Positions 92 to 26,129 of a stretch of DNA of 26,129 nucleotides are shown in pieces. The stretch lies in the NCBI GenBank assembly GCA_026770585.1, contig MU646565.1:177439-203567 (forward strand), read 5' to 3'. This DNA comes from Baffinella frigidus. Its lineage: Eukaryota; Cryptophyceae; Cryptomonadales; Baffinellaceae. Under the pieces are notes generated by a model. It did not search any database and had not been told where the DNA came from. It was given only the letters and a program-made list of their open reading frames with translations. Within the stretch, counting starts at the first letter, position 1, and each line of letters opens with the position of its first letter. The position numbers and the translations under genes were made by a program.

Positions 92-2028
92 CATATCGAG
101 CGGACGTCATCGGGGTATATGGTGGTGAAGGGGGGGGTGCCGGCCATGTGGACGCTCGAGGTCGACCCTTGACCCTAACCACCAAAGCCTAACGACGCCC
201 CAAGATCTTAGCCCCTGAACCCTAGACACCGCAACCCCTTACAAACAGAATCAAGGCCTAACCCCGAAGCGCGAAACAAAGATCGCGCTGCCCCAAGCCG
301 GGGCGCTAGCCGGCGGAGAGTTGTCTGGGGAGGAGGAGCAATCCGAAACCCCAAACCTTGACCCCCAAACCCCACCTGAGGTCGACCTCTCACCCCGAGA
401 CCCTAACCGCGCTAGGAGGTAACTTGCAGGAGGGTTTCGGGGGTATAGGGTGTATTCACCCTAGAACCGTGAAATTCTTCACAGTAAAGATCCGTAACCG
501 GAATCCCGACACCCCACCGCAGGTCGCGCTCCCCAACTACTGCAAAGCCTGAGGGGAAGTCTCAATTTCTCTGGACACGACACTATTGTTGCCTTTTGAC
601 GATTTTTGGTCACGTCCTTGGGTCAGAAATTGCCTTTTGAGGTGAAAATGGCTCCAAAGTATAGGACACCAGAGTGTCCGCTACTTTTTGAAACTTCCCC
701 TGGGGCTTTGCAGTAGAAAGCCAGCGGAGGAGGCGGTAACGTGGAGTCTTAGCTCGCGTAGGAATCCAAACCCCTGACCCGTAACCCCGAAACCTTTGAT
801 CTCAGGTCGCGTTACCGAACGCTGGGGCGCTAGGGTTTGAGAAGTCGTCTGGGGAGGCGGAGAAATCCAACCTTCTAAACCTTAACCCTCCTCAGGTCGA
901 CCTCTCACCCCGACACGACACCGCACCTCAAGTGGCGCTCCCCAGAAAGCTTTCTTTCTGGGCTCTCCGGAACCTTGCGCGCAGCTTGCGCGGTTCCGGA
1001 GAGTCTGCGCGCGCAAGGTTCCGGAGAGCACGGTTCCGGAGAGTCTGCTTCCGCGGAGGAATCCGAAACCGGGGGACCCGTAACCCCGAAACCTCTGATT
1101 TCAGGTTGCGCTTCCGAAAGCCGGGGCGCAAGGCGGGGGTGCGTCGTCAGGGGAGGAGGACCCCGTGACGCGGACGCGCCTCTTCAGGTGCCCCCTAACC
1201 CTCGAAACCCAGTACCCTAAACACGAAACCCCAACGAACCCCGGAACCCCAGACCCGAGACCCGAGATCCGAGACCCGAGACCCGAGACCCGAGACCCGA
1301 GACCCGAGACCTGCGACCCGAGACCCGAGACCCCAAGTCCTTTCAGTTCAGGGTTCTGTGCTTTGACCACAAACCCTTTCGGTTCAGGGTTTTGGGTTCA
1401 AGGTTCAGGGATTAGGGATGAGCGCTCCCCAAAGCCGGCGCGCTAGGAGGCGAGGATCCGGAGAGGAGGATCGGGAGGAGGACCCAGTGGCGCGGGGGCG
1501 CCTCTTCCGGTGTCCCCTAACCCCGAAACCCGAAACCCGAAACCTGGAACCTCAAACCCGAAACCCGAACGAAACCCTGGACCCCAAACCCTGCCGCAAC
1601 CCTCCCGAAACCCTCCCGCAATCCTGCCAAAACGTCACTGAAACCGAAAACCGAAACCCGAAGCCCGAAACCCGAAACCATGTCCCTGAACCCTAAACCC
1701 CTGACACTCAACCCTAAACCCTAAACCCTAAAACCTTAACCCTAAACCCCAAAGAGTAAACCCTAAACCCTCAACCCCAACCCCAGACGCCGCCTGGCAA
1801 TCTTCGTGGTGATCGTACTCCTCAAAGCCCTCATCCCGTCCTTCTATCCTCATCCCGTCCTTCCATCCTCATCCCGTCCTGCCATTCTCATCCCGTCCCT
1901 TTATCCTCATCCCGTCCTGTCATCAGTCTCAACACGTCCCCATCCCGTCCTCACCAGGCGCCGCATCGCGATCTTCGTGGTGATCGTGCTCATCAAAGCC
2001 CTGGTCGTGGGTCTCTTCTTCGTAGCAG
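92..2028 (+). CDS. Unidentified protein with a transmembrane segment, partial, three exons
   Basis: I do not recognise this gene. Three exons fit together in phase: 92-160 (begins HIERTSSGYMVVKGG, ends MWTLE), 1105-1187 (begins VALPKAGAQGGG, contains GEEDPVTRTRLF) and 1958-2028 (RRIAIFVVIVLIKALVVG, then LFFVA). Exon 1 ends in phase 0. Exon 2 ends with AG and exon 3 begins with G, restoring an Arg codon. Exon 3 ends in phase 1 before GTAACC. All junctions are GT-AG. Exon 3 encodes three consecutive Arg (one from the junction) followed by about 20 hydrophobic residues. This looks like a membrane anchor with a positive cytosolic flank, although one Lys interrupts the helix. The 5' end is cut by the G run and I found no terminal exon. 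Decayed copies of exons 2 and 3 surround them and support their identity as exons. A SNARE-like tail anchor or a type I membrane protein is possible, but neither is shown. Confidence 0.5.
281..950 (+). pseudogene. 5'-part echoes of exon 1105-1187 (four copies)
   Basis: Copies at about 281-346, 521-549, 801-868 and 926-950 resemble the start of exon 1105-1187. They share a core like TCGCGCTxCCxAAxGC, and the two longest also share GGGGCGCTAG followed by GTCTGGGGAGG. Two keep a CAG immediately before the copy. They lie upstream of the complete exon and contain substitutions and truncations, so they read as decayed partial duplicates inside the intron. Confidence 0.6.
1419..1511 (+). pseudogene. 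3'-part echo of exon 1105-1187
   Basis: This stretch repeats the exon end GAGGAGGACCCxGTGxCGCG followed by GGCGCCTCTTCxGGTG, including the position of the splice donor. The 5' side is also recognisable (GCGCTCCCCAAAGCCGGCGC), but no acceptor precedes it. It lies downstream of the complete exon. Confidence 0.6.
1786..1834 (+). pseudogene. 5'-part echo of the transmembrane exon
   Basis: After a CCCCAG acceptor-like site the sequence encodes RRLAIFVVIVLLKALI, close to RRIAIFVVIVLIKAL of exon 1958-2028. It then breaks off into an 18 to 19 bp minisatellite. Most differences are silent or conservative. Confidence 0.7.
1831..1950 (+). repeat. Minisatellite, unit about 18-19 bp (CTCATCCCGTCCTTCTAT)
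   Basis: Five or six imperfect copies of TCATCCCGTCC plus a variable tail fill the gap between the exon echo and the complete exon at 1958. The unit seems to have nucleated on the echo's own end (AAAGCCCTCATC). Confidence 0.8.

Positions 2029-26129: not shown

Follow-up and report, generated by a model that had tools for sequence, protein, structure and literature searches.

Truncated copies of exon edges beside their own exons in genes of the cryptophyte Baffinella frigidus

Intron lengthening is often put down to transposons. In plants, patch-mediated or paired-nick tandem duplication generates short tandem duplications from staggered breaks, and we know of no description of these as confined to exon-intron borders. 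Three published systems come closest to the pattern reported below. In the potato RdRp case (PMC4974935) a new intron lies between short duplicated exon copies; as in Baffinella frigidus, introns there retain short stretches of exon or exon-border sequence duplicated locally, whereas in the present case it is existing introns that lengthen, with many copies per gene, each beside its own exon. Introners (PMC9860276) likewise represent a genome-wide gain of intron sequence, with duplicated flanks in some families, but they are dispersed related elements, whereas the exons studied here match only their own place, bar ten chance-like matches and paralogues. Telomeric repeat insertion in mammals was accompanied by flanking duplication at 10 of 155 loci (PMC2246262), an arrangement resembling that at exon 10 of the SNW1 gene considered here, where telomere-like arrays lie next to duplicated flanks; however, the part of that paper drawn on here shows no tie to exon borders, and several families in the present case are tandem units without a telomeric insert. 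No description of exon-edge copies of this kind was found among the papers listed by our literature search, with subscription journals mostly outside its reach. The repeat content of cryptophyte genomes is often above 50% (PMC12220804).

The window, i.e. the whole stretch of DNA analysed, comprises 26,129 nucleotides at positions 177,439-203,567 of contig MU646565.1, in an assembly of 382,457,362 bp and 1364 contigs. The gene models used are:

SNW1 gene, 18665..25823, + strand, 14 exons: 18665-18685, 18792-18841, 19394-19466, 20246-20326, 21010-21089, 21339-21417, 22045-22125, 22624-22700, 23151-23211, 23484-23594, 24149-24271, 24616-24672, 25242-25313, 25751-25823 (last modelled)
Polyprenyl synthase gene, 7277..17744, - strand, 11 exons: G1 17654-17744, G2 16729-16800, G3 15622-15764, G4 13904-13976, G5 13122-13192, G6 12262-12355, G7 11331-11468, G8 9795-9888, G9 9228-9262, G10 8569-8654, G11 7277-7340
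Membrane-protein exon M1, 1958..2028, + strand, single modelled exon of a membrane-like protein

The SNW1 model has GT-AG introns with the reading phase preserved through its 14 exons, and human SNW1 matches it at E=1.3e-92. Cryptomonas paramaecium provides the top-scoring relative of its protein, with 71% identity across 97% of the query; a few metagenome proteins reach 78-81% identity, but over 62-72% of the query. The polyprenyl synthase model matches PF00348 at E=3.4e-58. An open frame at 5481-6647 runs for 389 codons without a stop and has no Pfam match, and the run of 91 G at positions 1-91 is possibly a sequencing or assembly artefact.

We compared 26 exons (11 of the polyprenyl synthase, 14 of SNW1, and M1) with the window by blastn, taking as the flank of an exon its adjoining intron or, past end exons, at most 3 kb. 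At E≤0.01 the exons' own flanks contain 32 partial copies in sense orientation, hereafter called echoes, and none in antisense; the remainder of the window, about 14 times longer on average (24.4 kb versus 1.75 kb of flank), returned neither sense nor antisense exon matches at this threshold. Relaxing it to E≤0.1 gave 36 sense and 1 antisense matches in the flanks, against 5 sense and 2 antisense elsewhere. The echoes span 15-97 exon bases, 29 of the 32 differ from their exon, by 4-26%, and they belong to 13 of the 26 exons (polyprenyl synthase 9/11, SNW1 3/14, M1 1/1). The sequence-only reading had reported more than 30 partial exon copies inside introns, a number that this census bears out, except that the echo of G11 lies past the stop codon and the neighbours of M1 are unmodelled. 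It had also placed them on both strands and in unrelated genes, as is indeed the case for the polyprenyl synthase (-), SNW1 (+) and M1 (+), and they recur on 5 of the 12 other contigs tested, again on both strands and in other genes. The echoes at E≤0.01, all located by blastn and in the arrays also by repeat period, are:

1788..1831, +, M1 echo, 5' part, upstream
2139..2162, +, M1 echo, 3' part, downstream
16571..16609, -, G2 echo, 3' part, downstream
15945..16012, -, G3 echo, 5' part, upstream
15388..15484, -, G3 echo, 3' part, downstream
15223..15258, -, G3 echo, 3' part, downstream
14723..14753, -, G4 echo, 5' part, upstream
14543..14574, -, G4 echo, 5' part, upstream
14312..14353, -, G4 echo, 5' part, upstream, 188-bp array
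14119..14166, -, G4 echo, 5' part, upstream, 188-bp array
13815..13832, -, G4 echo, 3' part, downstream
13708..13726, -, G4 echo, 3' part, downstream
13578..13592, -, G4 echo, 3' part, downstream
13028..13053, -, G5 echo, 3' part, downstream, 99-bp array
12924..12954, -, G5 echo, 3' part, downstream, 99-bp array
12832..12862, -, G5 echo, 3' part, downstream, 99-bp array
12598..12656, -, G5 echo, exon bases 7-65 of 71, downstream, 6/6 tie counted as 3'
12028..12050, -, G6 echo, interior piece, downstream, sole polarity exception
11834..11858, -, G6 echo, 3' part, downstream
11643..11724, -, G7 echo, 5' part, upstream
11153..11244, -, G7 echo, 3' part, downstream
10995..11040, -, G7 echo, closer to 3' end, 20 bases short, downstream
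10353..10420, -, G8 echo, 5' part, upstream
8763..8805, -, G10 echo, 5' part, upstream
8380..8440, -, G10 echo, 3' part, downstream
8114..8146, -, G10 echo, 3' part, downstream
7893..7925, -, G10 echo, 3' part, downstream, 33/33 identical
7109..7130, -, G11 echo, closer to 3' end, 8 bases short, downstream, past the stop codon (non-intronic)
22532..22558, +, SNW1 exon 8 echo, 5' part, upstream
22955..22991, +, SNW1 exon 9 echo, 5' part, upstream
23694..23713, +, SNW1 exon 10 echo, 3' part, downstream, past a CCCTACA array
23841..23916, +, SNW1 exon 10 echo, 3' part, downstream

Each upstream echo carries the 5' part of its exon, and of the 21 downstream echoes 19 are closer to the 3' end, one is equally far from both ends and was counted as 3' (12598-12656) and one is an interior piece (12028-12050). 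The polarity originally claimed, with 5' parts upstream and 3' parts downstream, is thereby confirmed (11/11 and 20/21, tie included; Fisher p=9e-8). The companion claim that splice sites are carried along stands for the acceptor, AG preceding all 11 upstream echoes, and only in part for the donor, as GT is kept in 15 of the 21 downstream echoes and lost in 6, three of which stop short of the exon end (one of these three being that of G11, a terminal exon without GT). Since the splice dinucleotides are mostly kept, the echoes seed candidate decoy splice sites, as judged from the sequence. The supposed decay of similarity with distance from the exon did not materialize: over the 32 echoes identity shows no trend with distance (rho -0.07, p=0.72), and the farthest of the three downstream echoes of G10 is the most similar, both of which are contrary to simple repeated tandem growth from the exon.

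Two further resemblances were noted by eye. Alike blocks around GGGGCGCTAG (at about 300, 820, 1120 and 1430, within 281-1460) may derive from an exon, as yet unrecognised, that precedes M1, and at 22226-22240 the 3' end of SNW1 exon 7 recurs as a short inverted copy, which could be due to chance.

Several families consist of head-to-tail units of exon part plus intron, in arrays of period 99 and 188 and in contiguous tandem pairs (15258-15484 versus 15487-15718, with a 229-bp step, and 11061-11244 versus 11250-11420, with a 189-bp step), and nearby array copies of G4 and of G5 appear by eye to have truncation points in common. Other families match almost solely inside the exon. Of 26 exon-echo alignments from the two window genes, 18 extend over at most 12 bases of shared intron. 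The intron flank of the echo, taken as 120 bp, resembles that of the exon (p<0.05 versus mismatched pairs) in only 14 of the 32 echoes, so that a long copied intron part is missing or has been replaced in many cases. As simulated undirected duplication yields a shared intron part this short in a fraction of 0.12 to 0.65, this feature alone is not decisive.

Mismatches between echo and exon number 31, 26 and 79 at codon positions 1, 2 and 3, over 445, 447 and 441 sites (rates 0.070, 0.058 and 0.179). The resulting third-position share is 58%, whereas a dead copy facing an exon under constraint should show about 50% (p=0.07) and change in the echo alone 33% (p=4e-9), several echoes of one exon being non-independent in these statistics. 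Synonymous mismatches amount to 54 against 82 others, 40% versus 26% under random change (p=0.0006), an excess that fits drift of the exon adding synonymous changes. We also considered the echoes as translated coding exons and rejected this, as the mismatch pattern does not require translation; there may be weak constraint on them.

Family searches gave 10 matches to Cpn60/TCP1 and 23 to Ras, with exons on other contigs, and from these an outside sample of 39 exon stretches was drawn, forming 13 sets on 12 contigs (15 of CCT1, 7 of CCT4, 14 of the 23 Ras matches and 3 other CCT matches); the CCT1 and CCT4 exons were picked by eye from frame translations, so that some exons may be missing from the list, and the search covered the CCT4 locus except for 1786 bases. 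In their own flanks, the whole locus being counted as flank for single-exon sets, these stretches have 15 sense echoes, distributed over 12 of the 39 exons; echoes occur in 5 of the 13 sets and are absent from 8, and the sample gave 1 antisense match. All 15 sense echoes have the expected polarity (7/7 upstream are 5' parts, 8/8 downstream are 3' parts), bringing the tally for window and outside sets to 18/18 upstream and 28/29 downstream, one tie being counted as agreeing. No sense match lay past a neighbouring exon in the outside sets, a control that has weight only in the five multi-exon sets. A cross-locus control of 65 exons against 126 kb gave 52 matches, of which by eye 42 are paralogous Ras or CCT exons or stem from two overlapping loci (C39) and 10 are chance-like matches to unrelated sequence; with these exceptions, echoes are specific to their own exon. 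Local direct duplicates were present in all eleven loci inspected without gene models. One of the inspected loci (L012) has one probable exon at 6748-6856, read by eye, and Pfam searches with ten of its frames returned nothing above the cut-off. A scan of viral_contigs for related loci found none.

On balance, we consider it rather probable that each echo is the dead remnant of a short local duplication across an exon-intron border, with the underlying breaks directed to such borders. A duplicated tract would start or stop within the exon, reach at least to the splice site at its other end, and be copied in tandem, sometimes with other sequence now between the copies. Survival would be limited to events after which one complete exon and both of its splice sites are still present, and this demand for a complete exon would cause 5' copies to remain upstream and 3' copies downstream. 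The intron would lengthen by the copied length, after which the truncated copy would drift neutrally and the exon would change mainly at synonymous sites. Break repair, for instance fill-in of staggered nicks, would be the most economical route, and the new element would be the direction of breaks towards exon borders. Several observations speak against this explanation: identity that does not fall with distance, the farthest downstream echo of G10 being the most similar one, the short or unrecognisable intron part in many echoes, the ratio of 27 exon-touching to 16 intron-only raw pairs given below, the antisense match of the outside sample, and the uneven spread of the echoes, which touch 3 of 14 SNW1 exons and are absent from 8 of 13 outside sets.

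The direction towards borders has to be weighed against local tandem duplication that strikes everywhere, the exon acting as a frozen reference and intron-intron duplicates decaying twice as fast. Such a process accounts for the polarity and the codon-position pattern, and with 40-bp units and many indels it gives short intron tails (0.65 of alignments); in a self-comparison of the two window genes at E≤0.01, with simple repeats masked and some intron-only slippage hence hidden, 27 exon-touching pairs stand against 16 intron-only sense pairs, with 1 antisense. It predicts, however, an intron-only majority. By eye, 11 of the 14 intron-only pairs at E≤1e-3 join one echo to another, one lies beside two echoes and two do neither (8676/8740 and 10602/11078). 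When intervals overlapping by at least 8 bases were merged into families and pairs overlapping an echo unit were absorbed, five genes (the polyprenyl synthase, SNW1, CCT1, CCT4 and one Ras, the exon ends of CCT and Ras being approximate) yielded 27 exon-anchored families and 5 others, and the count was the same under masking of periods up to 30, 21 or 14. The five others are, by eye, an echo pair of SNW1 exon 10, one family beside the G6 echoes, two whose ends coincide with an exon stretch or fall no more than 10 bases from one, and one unconnected repeat. Undirected duplication with neutral decay was simulated without filler (7 settings, each of 6 genes) and with filler (10 settings, each of 8 genes), using introns of random sequence without simple repeats and the polyprenyl synthase layout only, and families were merged in the same way; in none of the 17 settings did exon-anchored families outnumber intron-only ones, the top pooled share being 39 of 91 (43%, or 39:52), and the 40-bp high-indel setting gave 23 against 114. 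We therefore set undirected duplication aside as unlikely: with 27 of 32 families exon-anchored against at most 43% in simulations, duplication seems to be directed at exon borders. The original proposal, in which tandem duplication acts locally and breaks once inside the exon, is supported in its polarity, in its direct orientation close to the source (32 sense echoes, none antisense and none elsewhere) and, for several families, in its tandem units; decay with distance and an undirected process are not supported.

Insertions at exon edges offer another way of separating an exon from a copy of its edge: telomere-like repeats, minisatellites or mobile elements would make target-site-like duplications that survive if the duplicated tract extends across the splice site. 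In one clean case a CCCTACA array (23599-23679) lies between SNW1 exon 10 and the first echo of its 3' edge, minisatellites (19-, 30- and 32-bp) separate M1, SNW1 exon 9 and G10 from their upstream echoes, and telomeric insertion at breaks with flanking duplication has been published for mammals (PMC2246262). Other families, however, are contiguous tandem units without an insert, and the target-site duplications of 3-9 bp given for some introner families (PMC9860276) contrast with the 15-97 exon bases copied here, leaving insertion as a rather improbable source. Relics of whole-exon duplication, that is, alternative or mutually exclusive exons that have lost one end, find some encouragement in the echo at 12598-12656, which covers bases 7-65 of the 71-base G5, but random loss of an end would not yield 18/18 and 28/29 polarity, nor the truncation points common to nearby G4 and G5 array copies (by eye), and we hold this origin to be very unlikely. 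Much the same low probability attaches to the idea that echoes are not simply dead copies but are refreshed by gene conversion from the exon or maintained by selection for some function. Many of them, about 90% identical to the exon, break off at the splice site, identity does not decay over distance, and the 58% third-position share lies slightly above the 50% expected (p=0.07); against this, the codon-position pattern is compatible with dead copies, and GT is absent at 6 of 21 downstream echoes, 3 of them short of the exon end (among these G11, terminal and without GT). Creation of introns by tandem duplication of an exonic AGGT segment (the Rogers model), with the echoes as duplicated halves, also leaves exon copies in introns, and by eye AG ends 16 of the 25 exons before an intron and GT starts 13 of the 25 after one. 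Under this model the copy should adjoin the exon on the far side of the intron, whereas 26 of 29 echoes lie closer to their own exon than to the next; this position counts against the model, and several units include intron sequence, so that the intron predates the duplication, making such an origin scarcely credible. Finally, the sequence is repeat-rich and the window begins with 91 G, as might accompany faulty assembly; false duplications, however, would be nearly identical, whereas 29 of 32 echoes differ by 4-26% and other contigs repeat the polarity, so that we regard an assembly artefact as extremely improbable.

Other repeats of the window merit mention in their own right. In a test for introner-like dispersal, one 860-bp stretch of SNW1 was searched against the assembly, with 40 of 2756 candidates scored, and beyond itself only telomere-like arrays matched elsewhere; this search gave at least 127 matches on many contigs, nearly all of them telomere-like arrays (including loci L002-L008), indicating that such arrays are common in the genome. 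Telomere-like 7-mers follow the gene strand, being C-rich on the sense strand (104 versus 14 in 7277-17744, -; 87 versus 1 in 18665-26129, +; 21 versus 2 in 1-2400), and are nearly missing from 2401-7276 (0 and 1). By eye they often adjoin donors and acceptors, and they could supply pyrimidine tracts and branch points. An inverted repeat at 10677-10895, with 103-bp arms that are 98% complementary and a 13-bp loop, resembles either a miniature inverted-repeat element or a duplication of the foldback type. Ends like GTCAACTT mark a dispersed motif that was seen by eye at about 2820-2880, 3120-3170 and 19660-19720 and is similar to the unconnected repeat in an intron of the CCT4 locus.

Returning to border-directed duplication, it is conceivable, if rather doubtful, that the guide is the messenger RNA: spliced RNA would re-hybridise to the gene along the exon only, with the edge of the hybrid at the splice junction, and cuts at this edge and inside the exon would be followed by fill-in. 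Such a hybrid edge would explain both the confinement to exon borders and the frequent stop at the junction, and intron growth would then be a process linked to transcription and splicing. Irrespective of the guide, the echoes point to DNA duplication at exon borders as a route of intron growth. As the frozen exon provides a reference for each nearby duplication, every gene can be read separately for the rate, size and placement of that growth. If duplication is truly directed to borders, mutation would be linked to gene structure, and the spliceosome would face a steady supply of decoy splice sites to reject.
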